A program made the position numbers and the translations under genes. The notes beneath the pieces are model-generated. The model had not been told where the DNA came from, did not search any database, and saw only the letters and a program-made list of their open reading frames with translations. Source: Treponema denticola (GTDB taxonomy: Bacteria > Spirochaetota > Spirochaetia > Treponematales > Breznakiellaceae). Taken from it: DNA of 34,076 nucleotides. Position 1 is the stretch's first letter. The number at the start of each line of letters is the position of its first letter. Shown here piece by piece: positions 174-13,463 of this stretch. The stretch covers positions 2,479-36,554 of the forward strand of contig DYPP01000016.1 in NCBI GenBank assembly GCA_020719845.1, in the 5' to 3' direction.

Positions 174-281
174 CCCCGCAATCAGGAACCATGCGAATGA
201 ACATCGCCCAACTCCGCCAGGTCCGGAAGGAAGCAACGGCAAGCGTGTGTGCGTTGCGCCGTGGCCTCCCTGGTCGCGGGG
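174..281 (+). ncRNA. ffs: Signal recognition particle RNA, small bacterial (4.5S) type
   Basis: The hallmark SRP-RNA segment CAGGTCCGGAAGGAAGCA is present at 218-235. It forms the apical hairpin with GGAA tetraloop (225-228) and the asymmetric internal loops bound by Ffh. The ends pair as one long rod: CCCCGC (174-179) with GCGGGG (276-281), then TCAGG with CCTGG and CCATG with CGTGG. Length is about 108 nt, matching the 4.5S type with no Alu domain. The RNA works with Ffh and FtsY to target membrane and secreted proteins co-translationally. It lies between tRNA-Ser and dnaX, a common position in bacteria. The exact ends are inferred from pairing. Confidence 0.93.
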
Positions 282-287
282 TTTTTT
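276..287 (+). terminator. Rho-independent terminator formed by the SRP RNA end
   Basis: The closing strand GCGGGG of the SRP RNA is followed immediately by six T residues (282-287). The terminal stem of the RNA therefore doubles as the terminator hairpin, separating the RNA genes from dnaX. Confidence 0.7.
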
Positions 288-310
288 ATCCCCCGAGTTT
301 TCGCTATACT
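282..310 (+). promoter_or_regulatory. Putative dnaX promoter with -10 next to the start codon
   Basis: TATACT at 305-310 is a strong -10 hexamer ending 7 bases before the dnaX ATG at 318. At 17-bp spacing the -35 position is the T-run of the SRP terminator, a poor match to TTGACA. Transcription would begin at or within a base or two of the ATG, and no Shine-Dalgarno sequence precedes it. The weak -35 is the main doubt. Confidence 0.45.
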
Positions 311-317
311 CATTCCC

Positions 318-2132
318 ATGTCGTATGAAGTAACCGCCACCCGGCGGCGACCTAAAACCTTTGACGAGATGGCCGGTCAGGAATTCGTCGTCGCCACGCT
401 CAAGAGCTCCATCGAATCCGGGCGCATCGCCCACGCCTACCTTTTTTCCGGACCCCGGGGCTGCGGCAAGACCAGCGCCGCCCGGATCCTGGCCCGATCG
501 CTCAACTGCGAAAAGGGACCCACCGCGACACCCTGCGGGGTCTGCAACAACTGCGTGGAAATCGCCCGGGGCGCCAGTATGGACGTCATCGAAATCGACG
601 GCGCCAGCAACACCAGCGTCAACGACGTGCGGCAGATCAAGGATGAGGTGCTTTTTCCTCCCCACTCGGGGCGCTACAAAGTCTACATCATCGATGAAGT
701 GCACATGCTTTCCAACAGCGCCTTCAACGCGCTGCTCAAGACCATCGAAGAACCGCCGCCCTATATCATTTTCATCTTCGCCACCACGGAACTGCACAAG
801 GTGCCGGCGACCATCAAGAGCCGCTGCCAGCAATTCGCCTTCCGCCTGATTTCCATCGATACGATCAAGGTCCTGCTGGCCGAGGCGTGCCGGGAAATGA
901 ACGTGGAAGCCGAGGACGAGGCGCTCTTCTGGATCGCCAAGGAGGCTACCGGCAGCCTACGGGACGCCTACACGCTGTTCGACCAGGTCCTTTCCTTTTC
1001 CGACGGGCGTCTGCGGTCCGATCTGATCCGGGAAAAGCTCGGCTTGGCCGGATTGGACGCGGTCAACGCGCTGGCCGAGGCCTGCGCCGCCGCGGATCCG
1101 GCCGGCGCGCTGGCCCAGGTGGACGCCCTGCTGGAGCGGGGCATCTCGGTGGAGCAGTTCGTGATCGACCTAGCGGGCTACTACCGGAGCCTGCTGTTGA
1201 TCAAATCCGGCGTGACCCGGGAAGCCCTGCTGGGGTACGCCGGGGACCGGTTTTCTCCATTGGCCCGGGAGGCGTATTCGGCGCTGCAGCTGGAACGGGC
1301 GGTTTCGCTGCTGCTGGATCTGTACCGGGACATCCGTTTTTCCGTATCCCCCCGCTTCGAGCTGGAAGCCGCGGTTTCCCGCCTCTGCTGGCTGGGCAAG
1401 TGGATTTCGCCTGCGGAGCTCAAGGACGCCGTGGACGGCGTAAGGGGGTGTCTTCCAGGACCCGGCAACGGCCTCCCCGGGCCGCCCACCGCAACGGCGC
1501 TGACCAGCCGGGCGGCGCCGCTCCAGGCCCTGGAGCCCGTTGCGGCGGACGAGGATCTGGACCTGTCCCGCCCCGGGGCGCTGACCGAAGGTTTCAAGCG
1601 CTTCATGGCCGCCAAGGGAAAAGGAGAAGTCTTGCCGACTCCGCCCCCACCGCCCGCACCAGCCGCAGCGCCGGAGCCGGTGCCCGCAAAAGCCGGCGTA
1701 CCGCTTCCTGTTTTGTCGGTAGATGAGGAAGACACGGATGATACGGATGACGAGGATGATTTTACCCCGCCGAGTACGATCCCGGCGGTGGCCGGGGATC
1801 CCCGGCAGATCCGGCAGGGGATGATCGGGGCTTTGAAAAAGGAACGGGGCATGTTGGCGTCGGCGCTGGAGAAGACCCTGGATTGGGAGTTTTCCGGCGG
1901 CGTGTTGACGATTCCCGTCCGGGACCGCCTGACGGCGGAAATGCTGCGCAAGGAGATCGTCGCGCTGTCCGCCGTCGCCCGGGATCAGGGCGGTGCGGTG
2001 GCCGAATTCGAAATCGTCGAAAAGGCCGAGAACGGCGCGGCGGGAGCGGCGCCGAACGACAAGCAGCCCGTGCCGCCGGAAGCGGAACTGGTCCGCCGCA
2101 TGTTCCGGGGCAGCATCGTGCGCGCCCAATGA
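318..2132 (+). CDS. dnaX: DNA polymerase III subunit gamma/tau
   Basis: Clamp-loader ATPase that loads the sliding clamp and, as tau, couples polymerase cores to the helicase. The 604-residue product has Walker A GPRGCGKT at residues 45-52, a zinc site of C64, C73, C76 and C79, Walker B VYIIDEVH at 122-129, sensor-1 ATTE, and the SRC arginine-finger motif. After the AAA+ and lid domains comes a Pro/Ala-rich linker, then an acidic run (DEEDTDDTDDEDD) and a C-terminal domain. I chose ATG 318 because the protein then begins SYEVTATRRRPKTFDEM, the usual start, whereas the upstream in-frame start at 249 lies inside the SRP RNA. No canonical A-AAA-AAG slippery heptamer was found, so only tau is predicted. 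ybaB and recR follow, as in many bacteria. Confidence 0.97.
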   Translation: MSYEVTATRRRPKTFDEMAGQEFVVATLKSSIESGRIAHAYLFSGPRGCGKTSAARILARSLNCEKGPTATPCGVCNNCVEIARGASMDVIEIDGASNTSVNDVRQIKDEVLFPPHSGRYKVYIIDEVHMLSNSAFNALLKTIEEPPPYIIFIFATTELHKVPATIKSRCQQFAFRLISIDTIKVLLAEACREMNVEAEDEALFWIAKEATGSLRDAYTLFDQVLSFSDGRLRSDLIREKLGLAGLDAVNALAEACAAADPAGALAQVDALLERGISVEQFVIDLAGYYRSLLLIKSGVTREALLGYAGDRFSPLAREAYSALQLERAVSLLLDLYRDIRFSVSPRFELEAAVSRLCWLGKWISPAELKDAVDGVRGCLPGPGNGLPGPPTATALTSRAAPLQALEPVAADEDLDLSRPGALTEGFKRFMAAKGKGEVLPTPPPPPAPAAAPEPVPAKAGVPLPVLSVDEEDTDDTDDEDDFTPPSTIPAVAGDPRQIRQGMIGALKKERGMLASALEKTLDWEFSGGVLTIPVRDRLTAEMLRKEIVALSAVARDQGGAVAEFEIVEKAENGAAGAAPNDKQPVPPEAELVRRMFRGSIVRAQ

Positions 2133-2159
2133 ACCGAATTTTATCCGATGGAGCCGACT

Positions 2160-2462
2160 ATGAACATCAATCCCTTTGATCTTCTTAAAAACGCGCAAAA
2201 AATACAGGAACAGATGGGGGATATCCAGGAACGGCTCGGCGCGATCGTGGTGGTCGGGTCCGCCGGGGGCGGCATGGCTCAGGTGGAGCTGAACGGCCGT
2301 TTCGAAGTGGTCGCGGTGCGCCTGGCGGCGGAAGCGGTAGACCCGAACGACGTCGGCCTGCTGCAGGACCTGATCAAGGCCGCCTTCAGCGACGCGGGCG
2401 AAAAGGTGCGGGAACGGCTCAAGACCGAAGTGGGCGCCTTGGCGGGGGGCTTGGGCTTCTGA
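2160..2462 (+). CDS. ybaB: YbaB/EbfC family nucleoid-associated protein
   Basis: Small dimeric DNA-binding protein of 100 residues, normal for the family, usually encoded between dnaX and recR. It starts MNINPFDLLKNAQKIQEQM, typical of the helical N-terminus, followed by the central VELNGRFEVVAVRL strand region and a C-terminal helix with many charged residues. ATG 2160 is preferred to ATG 2148 because GGAG at 2150-2153 sits at a good distance before it and the family normally starts here. The gene begins 28 bases after the dnaX stop, and its TGA overlaps the recR ATG by one base. Its exact role is unsettled; it is thought to affect nucleoid structure or recombination repair. Confidence 0.93.
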   Translation: MNINPFDLLKNAQKIQEQMGDIQERLGAIVVVGSAGGGMAQVELNGRFEVVAVRLAAEAVDPNDVGLLQDLIKAAFSDAGEKVRERLKTEVGALAGGLGF

Positions 2463-3049
2463 TGAACGCCATCGACCGGCTGGTCAACCTGCTGACCAAA
2501 CTGCCCGGGGTAGGTAAAAAAAGCGCCGGCCGGATGGCTTACCACATCCTGGACGCCGATCCCGGGTACGCCCGGGCGTTGTCCGCAGAGTTGGCGGCCC
2601 TGCACACGGCCATCCGGCGCTGTTCGGTCTGCGGCAGCTTCACCGAAACCGACCCCTGCCCGATCTGCGACGATCCGGGGCGGGACGGATCCATCATCTG
2701 CGTGGTGGAACGCGCCCAGGACGTGCGGGTCATAGAGGAATCCCGGGAGTTCCGGGGTCGCTTTCACGTGCTGGGCGGACTCATCGCCCCGTTGGACGGC
2801 GTCGGGCCGGATGATCTCAACATCGGCCGGCTCCTGGCGCGCGTCCGCCGGGGCGAAGTGCGGGAAGTGATTTTGGCCATGAATCCCACCGTGGAAGGCG
2901 ACACGACGGCCCTGTACCTGCAGCGCCTGATGAAGGATCTGGCCGTCGAGGTTTCGCGGCTGGCTTCGGGCTTGCCCGTCGGCGGCGACCTGGAGTACGC
3001 CGACCGGCTGACCCTTTCCCGCAGTTTCCGCGGCCGGGTCCGCATGTAG
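2462..3049 (+). CDS. recR: Recombination mediator protein RecR
   Basis: Acts with RecO (and RecF) to load RecA on gapped, SSB-coated DNA. The 195-residue product has the family's usual length and domain order: helix-hairpin-helix LPGVGKKSAGRMA at 14-26, a zinc finger of C54, C57, C66 and C69, a Toprim domain beginning near VVERAQDV (residue 81) with NPTVEGDTTA at 141-150, and a C-terminal Walker-B-like tail. The ATG overlaps the ybaB stop (TGATG), so translation is probably coupled. The stop lies 7 bases from the end of the convergent gene at 3057 with no visible terminator. Confidence 0.97.
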   Translation: MNAIDRLVNLLTKLPGVGKKSAGRMAYHILDADPGYARALSAELAALHTAIRRCSVCGSFTETDPCPICDDPGRDGSIICVVERAQDVRVIEESREFRGRFHVLGGLIAPLDGVGPDDLNIGRLLARVRRGEVREVILAMNPTVEGDTTALYLQRLMKDLAVEVSRLASGLPVGGDLEYADRLTLSRSFRGRVRM

Positions 3050-5991: not shown

Positions 5992-7275
5992 ATGAATCAG
6001 TACAGTATCGAAGGCGGCCACCCCATCCGCGGCAGCATTCGCGCCAGCGGGAACAAGAACGCCGCGTTGCCCTGCATCGCCGCGGCGCTGCTCACCGACC
6101 AGCCGGTCATCCTGCGCAACATTCCGGATATCGAAGACGTCCAGGTGATGCTGGACGTCTACCGCGCCCTGGGCGGGACGGTGCAGGCCATCGGGCCCAA
6201 CGCCTACCGGCTGCAAGCCGGGAACATCGTCACCTCCGAGATCCCCGTCCACCTGGCCAAAAAAATACGCGCTTCCATCCTCTTTGCCGGTCCCCTGCTG
6301 GCCCGGACGGGCACGGCCTTGCTGCCGCCGCCCGGCGGGGACGTCATCGGAAGGCGCCGGCTGGACACCCATTTTTTGGCCCTGACCGAGCTGGGCGCGG
6401 CGGTGGACGTCAACGGCGCCTACGGCTTCAGCGCCGCCGCCCTGGTGGGGGCGGATATCTTTCTGGACGAAGCTTCGGTCACGGCTACGGAAAACGCGGT
6501 GATGGCCGCGGTGCTGGCCAAGGGTCGCACCACGCTGACCAACGCCGCCGGGGAACCCCACGTGCAGGATCTCTGCCGTCTGCTGACGGGCATGGGCGCG
6601 CGCATCGGCGGCATCGGCTCCAACATTCTCACCATCGACGGCGTGTCCCGCCTTGCGGGCTGCGACTACGAGATCGGCGCCGATTTTATGGAAGTCGGAT
6701 CCTTCATCGGCATGGCCGCCGCTACCCGGGGGGAGTTGGTCATCGAGGGCACCAATCCTCAGGACCTGCGCCCGGCCAAGATCGCCTTCGGCAAACTCGG
6801 CATCCGCTGGGAATCGGAAGGCAGCGTCATCCGGGTCCCCGGAGACCAGCAAATGCGGGTGAACACCGACCTGGGGGGCATGATCCCCAAAATCGACGAC
6901 GCCCCCTGGCCGGGATTCCCTGCGGACCTGACCAGCATCATCACCGTCGTCGCCACCCAGGTCGACGGGACCGTCCTGGTCCACGAGAAGATGTTCGAGT
7001 CCCGGATGTTCTTTGTGGATAAACTGATCGGCATGGGGGCGCGCATCGTATTGTGCGATCCCCACCGGGCGGTGGTGACCGGCCCTTCGCGCCTGGCGGG
7101 TTCCGAATTGACTTCCCCCGACGTCCGCGCCGGCATGGCCATGGTCATCGCCGCCATGTGCGCCGAAGGCCGCAGCGTGATCCGCAACGTGTACCAGATC
7201 GAACGGGGGTACGAACACCTGGTGCGCCGGCTTTCGGCTCTGGGCGCGCACATAACCCGGAGCGACGGAGACTAG
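5992..7275 (+). CDS. murA: UDP-N-acetylglucosamine 1-carboxyvinyltransferase (Asp-type MurA)
   Basis: First committed step of peptidoglycan synthesis: transfer of enolpyruvate from PEP to UDP-GlcNAc in the cytoplasm. The 427-residue product has the full family pattern: SGNKNAALP with K22, the catalytic loop PPPGGDVIGRRRLDTH at about 113-127, a Asn/Glu-rich TENAVMAAVLAKG segment, and the RMFFVDKLIGMGA region near the end. In the catalytic loop the usual Cys (Cys115 in E. coli) is Asp117. This substitution is known from Mycobacterium, Chlamydia and Borrelia and gives fosfomycin insensitivity. ATG 5992 is chosen because the family begins here and a strong promoter leads into it; an in-frame ATG at 5947 lies upstream of that promoter. 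The 3' end overlaps the convergent J-domain gene by 4 bases. Confidence 0.97.
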   Translation: MNQYSIEGGHPIRGSIRASGNKNAALPCIAAALLTDQPVILRNIPDIEDVQVMLDVYRALGGTVQAIGPNAYRLQAGNIVTSEIPVHLAKKIRASILFAGPLLARTGTALLPPPGGDVIGRRRLDTHFLALTELGAAVDVNGAYGFSAAALVGADIFLDEASVTATENAVMAAVLAKGRTTLTNAAGEPHVQDLCRLLTGMGARIGGIGSNILTIDGVSRLAGCDYEIGADFMEVGSFIGMAAATRGELVIEGTNPQDLRPAKIAFGKLGIRWESEGSVIRVPGDQQMRVNTDLGGMIPKIDDAPWPGFPADLTSIITVVATQVDGTVLVHEKMFESRMFFVDKLIGMGARIVLCDPHRAVVTGPSRLAGSELTSPDVRAGMAMVIAAMCAEGRSVIRNVYQIERGYEHLVRRLSALGAHITRSDGD

Positions 7276-8105: not shown

Positions 8106-9908
8106 CTAGCCGTGCTGGCCCGCCAGAAAAAGGAGCGCGAAAATAAAAAGCGCGATGCCGACGACGGAAAAAATCAGCAAGGCCATGGCGTAACCCAGGC
8201 TCAGGATCAGCCACAGCGCGATGGTGTCGGTTATCACGTGATAGGCCGTAACCAGGAGTTGAAAAACCGCCGGCATGATGATGACCATGGGCAACCCGAT
8301 AAAACCCGCACCCCGGGGAGAGCGCAGGCGCCAGCCCAGGGCGATGACCAGGACGCTCAGGGCCAGGAAGACCGCGGGTTCGAACAATCGGTGGATGATT
8401 TCAGCTTGCGTGGCCTGGGGAATAAAGCCGTAGTCGCCCAGCTTGTCCCGGGCCGCCAGCAAATCATTGAGCGGCAGCGCGGCGATGCCGTTCTGCGCCC
8501 GGGCGGCGAGCAGCAGATCTTCGTAGTCGATATTCAAAAATAGCTGGCCGATGGTGGAATCCGGCAGTTTGGCGCCCGATTCCCGGGGTGCCTCTCCGAC
8601 CGGGGCTGCGCTGTTCCGGTCCAGCATCCGCAGCAGGACCAGGGTCCGACGGAAACTTTGGTCGTTGTTTGAGTCCCCGGTCTGACGGTCGGTGTTCAGG
8701 GGCATGATCTTGGCGTAGGGCGCGGTAATCCGATATTCTTCCCGTCCTTCCGCATCTACCGCCAGCGCTTCAAATCCGGTTCCGTAGGCCACGTCGGAAA
8801 AAAGCGACAAGGAATCGAAGCGGACGACGATCCGCCGGTTCTGCCGGGCGGACAGGTCGGATTGGGAGAGGGAAAACAAGGCATTGTTGTGGACCTCCCC
8901 GACGGTCCTTCCGATTTCGTCCTTGAAGAAGGCCAGCGTGGCCATCTCGGCGCCGGCTTTGCCCAGGTATTTCTTTAGGTCCGGGTCCTGGGGATAGGCA
9001 TCGGCCAGTTCCTTGAAGATGTAGTAGGCGCGAATCCAATCCTCGCCGTCCAGGGCTTGATAACCTTCCCTTTTGCGGTGATAGACGCGGTACGCTTCGC
9101 TTTCGACTTCATTCGGCTCCAGCGAATTTACCGCCTGCCAGGCGGTACCGGCCAAAACCGCCGCCTCTGCGGCTTCCGGGCTGCCCGGTTTGGCCAGGCG
9201 CGAAGCCAGGGCGGCAAACCAGTGGGCGTCATAGGGTTGATCATCCTGCAGCGCCTGCCGGGCGGTGCGCAGGGCGTCGGCGGCCGTCAGCGGCGTGGCG
9301 TACCCGTGAATCACCGGCGCATCGCGGCCCCAACCCGGGTCGGGGTCGCGGGCGTCGGCGGCCTTCTCCAGCCTATCCTGGCCGGTCCGGATCGTATCCC
9401 GCAGTTCCTCGATCTTTTCGTTGCCCGGCCAGATCCGTTCGCAGGTAGCCAGGTGGTAAGAAGCTTCCAGCCAAGCTTTTTTCTGCGACGCCGCTTCCGC
9501 GCGGTCCCGGGCGGCGTGGTACAGTTCGCCCTTCAGGCGCATGTCGGCCTGGGCGTCCAGCAGCAGGGGCAGGGCCAACAAAAACAAGCCGCCGTAGATG
9601 AAGGTGGCCACGATGGCCGTCATGATCGGCTTGGTCATGCTCTCCAGAAATTTGAGCGAAAAGCTGCCGTAGTCGTGGGCTTCGCCGTCGTGGAAACCGA
9701 AAGGGACGACCAGGGCGGACAGCACCAGCGCGGGGAACAGGTTGATGAAGGCCACCGAACCGGCCGCCAGGCGCCACCAGACCGAATACAGCTCCAGCGG
9801 CACCGGCGACCCCGGATAAAGGGCCCGGAAAGCCAGGGATAGGGCCAGGGCGGCCAGGGCGTACAACGCCAAGGCCCCGGGAGCTCCCGTGCGCTTAAGC
9901 CCGGGCAT
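8106..9908 (-). CDS. Unknown polytopic membrane protein with large TPR-like central region
   Basis: I do not recognise this 600-residue protein. Three hydrophobic segments near the N-terminus (about 11-31, 47-72 and 95-115) and about three to four at the C-terminus (from about 500 on) flank a soluble part of nearly 400 residues. Its first half is helical with TPR-like stretches (for example DWIRAYYIFKELADAYPQDP). Its second half is strand-rich (IVVRFDSLSLFSDVAYGTGF). The start ATG 9908 has GGAG 8 bases upstream and overlaps the previous gene by 14 bases. The layout of membrane helices around a large insert is reminiscent of LptF/LptG, but I see no diagnostic motif, so no function is assigned. 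Confidence 0.8.
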   Translation of the reverse strand: MPGLKRTGAPGALALYALAALALSLAFRALYPGSPVPLELYSVWWRLAAGSVAFINLFPALVLSALVVPFGFHDGEAHDYGSFSLKFLESMTKPIMTAIVATFIYGGLFLLALPLLLDAQADMRLKGELYHAARDRAEAASQKKAWLEASYHLATCERIWPGNEKIEELRDTIRTGQDRLEKAADARDPDPGWGRDAPVIHGYATPLTAADALRTARQALQDDQPYDAHWFAALASRLAKPGSPEAAEAAVLAGTAWQAVNSLEPNEVESEAYRVYHRKREGYQALDGEDWIRAYYIFKELADAYPQDPDLKKYLGKAGAEMATLAFFKDEIGRTVGEVHNNALFSLSQSDLSARQNRRIVVRFDSLSLFSDVAYGTGFEALAVDAEGREEYRITAPYAKIMPLNTDRQTGDSNNDQSFRRTLVLLRMLDRNSAAPVGEAPRESGAKLPDSTIGQLFLNIDYEDLLLAARAQNGIAALPLNDLLAARDKLGDYGFIPQATQAEIIHRLFEPAVFLALSVLVIALGWRLRSPRGAGFIGLPMVIIMPAVFQLLVTAYHVITDTIALWLILSLGYAMALLIFSVVGIALFIFALLFLAGQHG

Positions 9909-10824
9909 GCGGTTTGCTCCGATCCCGGCTTTTGTCCCGGGCCAGAAAATTCAAAAACATAAAAACGTTGAGCAGAACCGCCAGGACCGCCATGCCGAAG
10001 GGCTGGGCGTAAACCCGGGGAACCAGGGGGCCGCCCAGGTCGGCGATAAAACCGATGATCTCTGGACTGCCGATAAAGAGGTCCAGGGAGACCAGCCACC
10101 GGAACAGGATGGTGCCGAGGAACAGGTCCGCCAGGGGCCATTTGGTTATCTGCAGGATAAAGCGGAACGACGCCAGAAAAAACGCCAGGCTGAGTACGTA
10201 AGCCATGTAGGGCAGGCGACCGGTCTCCCGGCGGGCGCGGAAACGCTCGGCGTACGCGGCGAGGTCGGCAATCAGACCCTGCATACTCGGCGGGACGCTT
10301 CTCCGCAGGGTAGAGACCGACAGGTCCGCCGCCATCGAGGCGTCCATGCGCCGCAGGCTCAGGGGCTTGCCGGGCTGGGCGATCACCCAGTCCGCATCCG
10401 GTCCGGTATCCCTGCCCACCAGGACGGCGTTGCCCATCCCGTAGGACCGTATCTGGCCGGTCCGGAGCGGCGTCTGCGCCGTTGCCGATCCGGCGAGCTT
10501 CAAGCTCTGCTCCAGGCGGTCCAGGCCTTCGCCGAGTCCGATCACCGCGCCGCCGACCAAAAGCGTCAACAGCACGGTGCTCAGCGGAGCAAGGATTCCC
10601 CGCCGGCCGGAATAGCTCAGGGAGAACAGTATGGTTATGTACAGGACAAAGGGAACAACCTGCCATACCGCAGCCGCCAGTTCGGGCAACAGCGCAAAAG
10701 GAGCGGGCGGGATGATTTGGGCGGCCAGGATCCAGTGCTGCAGGGTGGCTACGGCCGTCGCGGTCAGGAGTATGAAAGTGAAGAATATACTGGCAAACAG
10801 TATCAGCCGCGCTACGCCTTTCAC
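9895..10824 (-). CDS. Unknown six-helix membrane protein
   Basis: A 309-residue protein not recognised by motif. Three hydrophobic segments (about 7-29, 44-70 and 78-100), a polar region of about 90 residues, then three more segments (about 205-225, 232-255 and 275-295). The C-terminus is basic (RDKSRDRSKPHARA). The start is GTG 10824, placed 8 bases after a -10 box with no Shine-Dalgarno site. It is the first gene of a three-gene unit with the 600-residue membrane protein (14-base overlap) and the J-domain protein. Two adjacent membrane proteins with similar helix-insert-helix layout suggest they form one complex; that is inference. Confidence 0.78.
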   Translation of the reverse strand: MKGVARLILFASIFFTFILLTATAVATLQHWILAAQIIPPAPFALLPELAAAVWQVVPFVLYITILFSLSYSGRRGILAPLSTVLLTLLVGGAVIGLGEGLDRLEQSLKLAGSATAQTPLRTGQIRSYGMGNAVLVGRDTGPDADWVIAQPGKPLSLRRMDASMAADLSVSTLRRSVPPSMQGLIADLAAYAERFRARRETGRLPYMAYVLSLAFFLASFRFILQITKWPLADLFLGTILFRWLVSLDLFIGSPEIIGFIADLGGPLVPRVYAQPFGMAVLAVLLNVFMFLNFLARDKSRDRSKPHARA

Positions 10825-10832
10825 AATGCTTC

Positions 10833-10861
10833 AGCCTAGCACGGGTAAACCGTGAATGCAA
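10833..10861 (-). promoter_or_regulatory. Promoter for the three-gene membrane/J-domain operon
   Basis: On the minus strand: TTGCAT (10856-10861), a 17-bp spacer and TAGGCT (10833-10838). The -10 ends 8 bases before the GTG start at 10824, predicting a leaderless or nearly leaderless transcript. Confidence 0.5.
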
Positions 10862-10897
10862 GCGCGGTAAACAAAACACCCGCCGGCTTTTAACAAG

Positions 10898-10906
10898 TTA
10901 TCCACA
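10898..10906 (+). promoter_or_regulatory. DnaA box, perfect consensus
   Basis: TTATCCACA matches the high-affinity E. coli R1/R4-type DnaA box in all nine positions. It is flanked by AACAAG and G, the same context as the box at 11121. Confidence 0.75.
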
Positions 10907-10944
10907 GCAATTTTTTACCGATCCGGGCTGTTGATTTTTGAGTC

Positions 10945-10953
10945 CATGGATAA
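10945..10953 (-). promoter_or_regulatory. Weak DnaA box
   Basis: The minus strand reads TTATCCATG, matching 7 of 9 positions of TTATCCACA. It directly borders an AT-rich tract (TAAATTAGAGATTATTAAG). Alone it would be unconvincing; the neighbouring perfect boxes give it weight. Confidence 0.4.
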
Positions 10954-10967
10954 ATTAGAGATTATTA

Positions 10968-10976
10968 AGCGGATAA
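10968..10976 (-). promoter_or_regulatory. Weak DnaA box
   Basis: The minus strand reads TTATCCGCT, matching 7 of 9 consensus positions, including the core TTATCC. It lies on the far side of the AT-rich tract from the 10945 box. Confidence 0.35.
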
Positions 10977-11120
10977 ACTTCCCGCAATAAGGGGTTGGCG
11001 CGTTTATTTCTTTCTGCAACAACAATTTAATATGTCATTGAGAAATTCGTTGTCCCCCGGGCTCCGTCAGGCGTCTACAAAGCTATACATTTACGGAATT
11101 GATCCCCGGCTATGAACAAG

Positions 11121-11129
11121 TTATGCACA
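11121..11129 (+). promoter_or_regulatory. DnaA box, perfect TTATNCACA
   Basis: TTATGCACA fits the relaxed consensus TTATNCACA exactly and repeats the surrounding AACAAG...G context of the first box. A third, weaker box-like sequence, TTGTCAACA (11132-11140), follows 2 bases later in the same orientation. Confidence 0.7.
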
Positions 11130-11144
11130 GATTGTCAACAGCTT

Positions 11145-11747
11145 TCAATATGAAGAAAGATAATAGCCAAATCTTCGTGTAGAACGAATTTGCGGACCTT
11201 GCCGGGGTTCATGGAGCTCTCGGATATAGCGTCGCAAGCGTGATACGGCGCTATCCACAACCCGCGAATCCTCCCCCAGGGTGGGCCACAAAAATCGCTG
11301 CAGGGCCGACCGGGCCAGCGGCTGGGGAGCCCGGATCAGCAGGGTTTGCAGGATATAGGCTTCTTCCCGGTTCAGTCGGCGCGTCCCCGCGGGCCCGAAC
11401 AGCGTCGTCCCCTCCAGCCGCAGGGAAGATCCGGTCAGGGTGATGCTTTTGCCGATTCCCAACACCTGGGCTACCCGGATTTCCAGTTCCGCGGCGCTGA
11501 AAGGGTCGCGCAGGTAGTCCGTCGCGCCCTGGGCAAAGGCGTCGGGAAGATCCTCAATCCGGCCCATACAGATAAAAGGCCGGTGCCGGGGCAGGCGCGG
11601 AATGAGGTCGGCGTTTTCCGGGTAGGATAGCAGAAACGCGCTGTACACCGACAATGCGTCGGGCAGGGCGTCCGCATAGGCGATTCTAAATGAAAAAGGC
11701 CCGTTTCCGAGCCTTTTGGCCAGCCTGTCGGCTGAAGAGAGAACCAA
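11145..11747 (-). CDS. OmpR-type winged-helix regulator with degenerate receiver
   Basis: A 200-residue probable transcription regulator. The C-terminal half (about 100-200) is an OmpR/PhoB winged helix: RVVDSAVSRLRRYI is the recognition-helix region and RSTRRFGYYL the wing. The N-terminal half keeps the receiver's last part (GATDYLRDPFSAAELEIRV), but the conserved Lys of the KPF motif is Asp, the first segment is short, and no phospho-acceptor Asp is evident. Regulation by aspartyl phosphorylation is therefore doubtful. The start appears to be TTG 11747; no in-frame ATG lies nearby. The gene follows pspA by 26 bases in the same operon, and its 3' end abuts the candidate oriC. Confidence 0.75.
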   Translation of the reverse strand: MVLSSADRLAKRLGNGPFSFRIAYADALPDALSVYSAFLLSYPENADLIPRLPRHRPFICMGRIEDLPDAFAQGATDYLRDPFSAAELEIRVAQVLGIGKSITLTGSSLRLEGTTLFGPAGTRRLNREEAYILQTLLIRAPQPLARSALQRFLWPTLGEDSRVVDSAVSRLRRYIRELHEPRQGPQIRSTRRFGYYLSSY

Positions 11748-12520: not shown

Positions 12521-12901
12521 TCAGTCCCGAAACTGCGAAAGAAGGGGATAGTGCTGGGCCAGCGCCAGGCCGACGGACTCCAGGGAAGCGCGCAAATCCC
12601 CAAAATCCATGGAATCGTACTCCAGGGTGTCGACGAGGATGATATCGTTCTTGTCCAGGGCGTACGCTCCGTGCAGCACTTCCGACGCGTTCAGTTCCAG
12701 TATTTTGGTAAAAAATTCCAGCCGTTTGGTTTTGGGCGCGGGCATCACCACCACCCGGACCACCACGATCGGCGCGGCGTACATGACGACGACGCCTTCC
12801 AAACTATTGGCGTCGTCATTGATCAGCCACATGTCTTTTTCTATCTCCGTGTAGCTGAGCATGAGGTCGATCAGATAGCGTTCAATTTTGTTTTCCGACA
12901 T
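12521..12901 (-). CDS. Small YbjN-like / secretion-chaperone-like protein
   Basis: A 126-residue soluble protein, probably of the YbjN or CesT-like fold. The pattern is N-terminal helix (IERYLIDLMLSY), beta strands (MWLINDDANSLEGVVVMYAAP, VVVRVVVMPAP), helix (FFTKILELNASE) and a conserved-looking LHGAYALDKNDIILVDTL segment, ending in a helix. No catalytic motif is seen. The start is supported by GGAG 6 bases upstream. It lies 10 bases after the STAS/zinc-ribbon gene and 39 bases before pspA. The family assignment rests on fold pattern, not a signature, so it is tentative. Confidence 0.65.
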   Translation of the reverse strand: MSENKIERYLIDLMLSYTEIEKDMWLINDDANSLEGVVVMYAAPIVVVRVVVMPAPKTKRLEFFTKILELNASEVLHGAYALDKNDIILVDTLEYDSMDFGDLRASLESVGLALAQHYPLLSQFRD

Positions 12902-12911
12902 GCTGCGCTCC

Positions 12912-13463
12912 TTAACCCAGAAAGACCTGCCCGGCGTTGTCGATGGCCAGTATGGTTTTACATTCGGAACAACGGAAACGGCCGGGTTTGACCGCCTTCA
13001 GCTTCTTTGAACAGATCGGACAGCTGAAAATCTTGGGAAATATCGCCGTCTTTTCCGCAGGGGCGCCGGAACGGAAGAAGTCGATCGATTCGTCCAGGTT
13101 GTCCTTGATGTTGAAGAACTGGGAAAAACCGAGCAGCTGGAACACTTCATACACTTTGGGCTGAATTTCCAGCAACACCAAATCCCCGCCCCGGGGTTTG
13201 ACCGACTTGAGAAAGGCGGTAAAGGAACCGATACCGGTGGAAGAAACGTAGTTCAGGCCGCCGCACTGAAAAATCAGGCGAATGAATCCGGCTTCAATGG
13301 CCTTGGCGACTCTTTTTTGAAAGTAGTTGGAGTTATAGGTATCGATGTATCCGGTAAGATACAACACAAGACACCCCTCAACCTCTCCAACCTTCTGAAG
13401 TTTTATTTTGAGGCTTTCATCTTTCTCGTCGTCAAATCCGGGTACAATGTCGTTGTTAGTCAT
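12912..13463 (-). CDS. STAS-domain anti-sigma antagonist-like protein with C-terminal zinc ribbon
   Basis: A 183-residue protein. Residues about 20-130 are a STAS domain with the loop NYVSSTGIGS (71-80). By alignment with SpoIIAA, Ser75 is the likely phosphorylation site, and the usual Asp before it is Ser74. The C-terminus holds a four-cysteine zinc ribbon (C148, C151, C165, C168), not normal for SpoIIAA or RsbV. In the family such proteins sequester anti-sigma kinases when unphosphorylated; the ribbon suggests an extra protein or nucleic-acid contact. The start has GGAAGGAG 4 bases before ATG. It is first in an operon with the YbjN-like gene, pspA and the regulator, from a near-consensus promoter. 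No partner kinase or phosphatase is in the window. Confidence 0.85.
   Translation of the reverse strand: MTNNDIVPGFDDEKDESLKIKLQKVGEVEGCLVLYLTGYIDTYNSNYFQKRVAKAIEAGFIRLIFQCGGLNYVSSTGIGSFTAFLKSVKPRGGDLVLLEIQPKVYEVFQLLGFSQFFNIKDNLDESIDFFRSGAPAEKTAIFPKIFSCPICSKKLKAVKPGRFRCSECKTILAIDNAGQVFLG

Follow-up and report, generated by a model that had tools for sequence, protein, structure and literature searches.

The gene neighbourhood

The window, by which we mean the whole stretch of 34,076 bp that was analysed, comes from C30, a contig of 39.8 kb in an assembly of 3.3 Mb distributed over 252 contigs. It contains dnaX-ybaB-recR (249-3049) and, further on, an intergenic gap (10825-11144) that is the subject of this report. 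On one side of the gap stands a gene for an uncharacterised protein (9895-10824, - strand), which adjoins the module described below on its downstream side and served as a marker for finding the locus in relatives. It is followed by an LptF/LptG-family permease gene (8106-9908, - strand; Pfam PF03739, E=1.8e-7). The uncharacterised protein had no match in Pfam or NCBIfam, and a search of viral contigs with it returned no relatives. Its assignment as LptG was rejected, since Pfam gives an LptF/LptG match to 8106-9908 only.

On the other side lies a gene for an OmpR-type winged-helix regulator (11145-11747, - strand; Pfam PF00486), the 3' end of which abuts the module. The N-terminal part of this regulator is short and divergent; the winged-helix domain was matched and the receiver family was not. 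The gene adjoins the module in several families and is missing in most termite-gut relatives, and it was rejected as a necessary partner because the module persists in many genomes where the regulator is absent. The best conserved neighbour is a STAS-domain gene (12912-13463, - strand; Pfam PF01740), which was the marker for named genomes. Between the STAS and PspA genes, 12521-12901 (- strand) matches the chaperone-like CesT_Tir_1 family and keeps its synteny through much of the order. The original prediction had placed dnaX-ybaB-recR, a membrane operon and an OmpR-like regulator in this neighbourhood, and all three are as it described them.

Within the gap, a candidate promoter of the 9895-10824 gene (10833-10861, - strand; TTGCAT-17-TAGGCT) lies outside the module, and its bases are kept in relatives; this assignment is our inference and does not appear in the promoter scan output. 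No strong terminator or listed promoter was found in the gap beyond chance. An RNA element was considered and rejected, as Rfam gave no match to the gap at E up to 1.

DnaA boxes and repeats in the gap

Homology to relatives delimits a module of about 250 bp (10887-11140, + strand), which is matched at C30:13365-13618 by R1, a sequence-only model of the module. It holds two strong DnaA boxes on the + strand, TTATCCACA in the left cluster (10898-10906) and TTATGCACA in the right cluster (11121-11129), placed at -115 and +108 from the centre of a palindrome. Both belong to a direct repeat of 25 bp (CCGGCTTTTAACAAGTTATCCACAG and CCGGCTATGAACAAGTTATGCACAG) with 88% identity and 223 bp from start to start, which confirms the predicted pair of boxes in shared context and the same orientation about 220 bp apart. 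Apart from these two places, the 3.3-Mb genome has no exact match to the 16-mer AACAAGTTATSCACAG. Weaker boxes stand in tandem with the strong ones at 11-bp steps, namely CTTTTAACA (10887-10895, + strand), 11 bp before the left strong box, and CTATGAACA (11110-11118, + strand) and TTGTCAACA (11132-11140, + strand) in the right cluster; in each case the tandem position is kept in relatives. Another weaker box, CTATCCACA at 11251, falls within the OmpR-type regulator gene. The gap is AT-rich, as the original prediction had it, with 54-64% A+T per 100 bp vs about 35-40% in its surroundings.

Two further elements complete the module. The central 25-bp palindrome (11005-11029) is degenerate in the window, with 8 mismatches to TAATTCNTTATATTATAANGAATTA, and well preserved in most relatives. 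To its right, the inverted repeat CGTCTACAAAGCTATACA (11072-11089) has 2 mismatches to the consensus TGTATN8ATACA. An additional exact copy of TTATCCACA occurs at 7014-7022 (- strand), inside murA and isolated from any module.

Conservation in Treponematales

The first comparison covered the gaps upstream of homologues of the 9895-10824 gene across the family, where the protein is only about 30% identical. The boxes recur in these gaps at a spacing of 209-223 bp. In a model-free count, two boxes on one strand at a distance of 190-235 bp are present in 38 of the 42 gaps upstream of the marker gene, vs a mean of 0.28 and a maximum of 3 in shuffles. The aligned modules follow one order: they begin with the box pair TTATTAACA-AG-TTATCCACA, which is followed after about 95 bp by the palindrome TAATTCCTTATATTATAAGGAATTA, after about 48 bp more by TGTATAAAAACAGATACA, and after another stretch of about 20 bp by the second tandem box cluster.

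R1 matches the module in many of the 119 relatives on which it was run. The module is found beside the STAS-CesT-PspA genes, or beside STAS alone, in four families of the order (f1, f3, f4 and f5). Of the 80 named GTDB loci collected with the STAS gene as marker, about 54 carry the module of about 250 bp with its box pair, 25-bp palindrome, TGTAT-N8-ATACA and second box pair, the weakest of these matches, near 20 bits, resting on position. A leave-one-out profile built without the host genome recovers the copy in the window at E=2.6e-11, and no other hit comes near it in 152 kb. By homology, therefore, the module is conserved in at least four families of Treponematales. It is not universal in the order, because R1 found nothing in one 1.1-Mb genome (G045) and weak or no matches in one genus (g38). 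A weak partial match in another genome (G095:C114, 22.7 bits) is unassigned.

Single boxes are common, and the motif TTWTNCACA occurs three times in the whole window vs 0.63 expected, a count reached in 4 of 100 shuffles; two exact TTATSCACA boxes on one strand, by comparison, arose in none of 20,000 dinucleotide shuffles of the gap. With conservation across the order, the leave-one-out recovery, the helical registers described below and movement of the module as a unit all against it, the view that these are functionless chance boxes in an AT-rich gap has almost nothing left to recommend it.

Likeness of the module and oriC

Weaker R1 matches appear upstream of dnaA in many genomes, and an alignment of 16 oriC regions of the family has the same part order and palindrome as the module. 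Measured from the palindrome centre, the boxes of the module fall at -93/-104/-115/-125 and +96/+107/+118, and those of oriC at -94/-105/-116 and +86/+97/+108. On each side, the best-box distances follow steps of about 10.5-11 bp in registers common to module and oriC, with different genera occupying different turns of one register series. The Rayleigh test for the module register gives p of about 1e-10 on the left and 1e-12 on the right, values that are inflated by shared ancestry. The TGTAT-N8-ATACA repeat likewise occupies positions one turn apart, at +52 or at +63 to +65 from the palindrome centre. This one-turn spacing of boxes and inverted repeat suggests that the bound proteins line up on a single face of the helix.

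Module and family oriC therefore share their box pairs, palindrome, spacing and registers, whereas the module differs in lacking an adjacent dnaA and a skew minimum and in carrying TGTAT-N8-ATACA, which is present within 1 mismatch in 35 of 54 modules vs 2 of 16 oriCs. The richest 50 bp in the host genome reach 74% A+T in the module vs 90% in oriC. The AT-rich stretches of module and oriC are comparable in several relatives, and the relatives are mixed overall.

Location of the chromosomal origin

The gap is not the chromosomal start site. The host dnaA gene is found on a different contig (C210:86053-87396), flanked by DnaA boxes: TTATGCACA/TTGTGCACA and TTATCCACA upstream and TTATCCACA downstream. 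Host skew was followed along two contigs, C210 with dnaA and C30 with the gap. On C210, cumulative GC skew falls over 87 kb to a minimum at 87376, in dnaA, and then rises; on C30, it shows no minimum or switch at the gap. Comparable results were obtained for Breznakiella homolactica RmG30 (NZ_CP067089.2; G033), a same-family relative that marks the host as a spirochaete of this family, in which skew is weak and 200 kb was sampled per place: skew reaches its lowest point at 3,162,714, some 30 kb away from dnaA, and no minimum is found at the module (2,729,915).

The proposal of a main chromosomal origin at the gap, to which the two strong boxes in an AT-rich intergenic stretch had given rise, can hardly be held against a dnaA gene with boxes of its own and the skew minimum on another contig. 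The original prediction had named a skew minimum elsewhere, or a better DnaA-box cluster beside dnaA, as findings that would overturn it, and C210 has its minimum in dnaA and boxes on both sides of that gene. The likeness to an origin that the prediction saw does hold at defined points: the box pairs, the palindrome position and the helical registers are those of the family oriC. Its second argument, that dnaX-ybaB-recR marks an origin nearby, was rejected on distance, with dnaX-recR 0.23-0.57 Mb from dnaA in complete members of the family (recR to dnaA 229 kb in G027, 573 kb in G028 and 321 kb in G033).

In complete relatives, the module itself lies about 210 kb (G061), 260 kb (G027), 404 kb (G033), 475 kb (G108) and roughly 0.35-0.4 Mb (G028) from dnaA. 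These distances amount to about 5-10% of the genome in G061, G027, G033 and G028, and to 17% in G108.

A candidate datA-like control locus

How replication is limited to once per cycle in spirochaetes is little known. In Escherichia coli, datA is a non-coding locus of about 260 bp, away from dnaA but near enough to oriC to be duplicated shortly after initiation, in which essential DnaA boxes of the same direction surround a site for a bending protein (PMC5742627). The module shares with datA (the DnaA-inactivating locus of the DDAH system) a non-coding nature, a similar length (about 250 bp vs about 260 bp), boxes in one direction and, in complete relatives, proximity to oriC. The two differ in the central site, which serves IHF in datA and is the 25-bp palindrome common to the family oriC in the module. 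Unlike datA, the module also has tandem box pairs about 105 bp on either side and an extra TGTAT-N8-ATACA, and it belongs to a spirochaete host. Its parts match the working principle of datA, which is why a DnaA control locus is proposed. We consider the gap to carry a second, oriC-mimicking, DnaA-binding control locus of the datA kind, with a probability of roughly 0.6; both the binding of DnaA and the control function are inferred. The module probably captures DnaA and so helps to time initiation.

The mechanism we envisage begins with DnaA, which would bind head-to-tail on the two same-strand box clusters, about ten helical turns on either side of the palindrome. A putative protein on the palindrome would join the clusters by bending or bridging the DNA, taking the role of IHF, and the clusters brought together would build a nucleoprotein core as at oriC. 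Because it is copied early after initiation, the module would then take up DnaA or promote its inactivation, restraining re-initiation in the manner of E. coli datA, if the direction of control is as supposed. Inactivation, reactivation or plain titration of DnaA may each be the mode of action. Recent work in E. coli supports titration by sites on the chromosome close to oriC (PMC12371093). The host genome encodes only one DnaA-like protein, and thus no Hda-like inactivator was detected in it.

Other known systems resemble the module less closely. E. coli DARS1 and DARS2 are, like the module, chromosomal DnaA-box clusters; DARS2 has accessory-protein sites, and DARS alter the nucleotide state of DnaA. 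In the DARS core, box I is opposed to boxes II and III (PMC5742627), whereas the strong and tandem boxes of the module are all on one strand, and this uniform direction argues against a DARS core. Chromosomal DnaA-box clusters in Bacillus subtilis and Streptomyces repress untimely initiation (cited in PMC5742627). On this description, what sets the module apart is that it copies the layout, register and palindrome of oriC.

In the open-access papers searched, no locus of this kind was found described for spirochaetes. If the control function holds, the phylum would have in the module, to present knowledge, its first candidate for a control site like datA. As a clean natural test case, the module could show which purposes the architecture of an origin serves beyond the start of replication, and it illustrates how box clusters that resemble an origin can lead origin prediction astray.

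Alternative functions

Transcriptional control by DnaA is an unlikely alternative that deserves to be weighed. The module would here couple the permease operon to the replication cycle, with DnaA as an activator or a looping repressor. In most genomes it lies just upstream of one permease operon gene, with a candidate promoter between; DnaA of the spirochaete Borrelia binds promoters and acts as a transcription factor (PMC9879097); and the palindrome is an intergenic site elsewhere in genomes too. It is the nearly constant position upstream of the permease operon that leaves room for such a role. A DnaA-regulated promoter should keep a fixed orientation and spacing to its gene, however, and the module does neither. 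In 10 genomes, the whole module, inverted repeat included, is inverted while the flanking genes keep their order and direction, and its distance to the downstream gene ranges from about 50 to 520 bp. In one genome (G066), a complete module stands between the genes for an EF-G-type GTPase and for RNase Y (rny). Neither the inversions nor the G066 location fits a promoter element of the permease operon, and an ordinary promoter has no need of the exact oriC registers that the module keeps.

A somewhat less likely reading is that the chromosomes of Treponematales carry in the module a dedicated decoy or second origin. Built in exact oriC register, it would form a complete origin complex at a distance from dnaA, there to compete for the initiator as a clock or to fire conditionally.

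Replication from the module itself, as a second, conditional or cryptic origin firing under some conditions, is more doubtful again. The module has every box and palindrome feature of oriC, in matching registers, and several relatives have comparable AT-rich stretches. Against this reading, neither the host nor B. homolactica has a skew minimum at the module, and the host module lacks the very AT-rich stretch of its oriC.

The palindrome as a wider signal

Many genomes of the family (G028, G061, G096 and others) contain the palindrome TAATTCNTTATATTATAANGAATTA at roughly 10-40 places, most of them intergenic, and its interpretation as a private mark of oriC and module was rejected for this reason. 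Three genomes were examined more closely, and among their 23 palindrome sites only those at oriC and at modules are accompanied by boxes on the same strand about 100 bp on either side. The host genome has no palindrome site within 3 mismatches, and the copies at its oriC and its module are both degenerate; good palindrome sites are lacking in G027 as well. Such joint decay suggests that one factor is shared by the two loci, and this palindrome factor has probably been lost or changed in the host genome. The host DnaA retains a DHTTV motif, part of the box-recognition helix of DnaA.

Two further arrangements of the palindrome were observed. In G073, palindrome pairs 207 bp apart recur on several contigs (e.g., C20:30838 and C20:31045) and look like a repeated element. 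In G061, a palindrome with weak opposed boxes (C1:1838-1862) lies just downstream of dnaA (328-1713), beside the oriC region.
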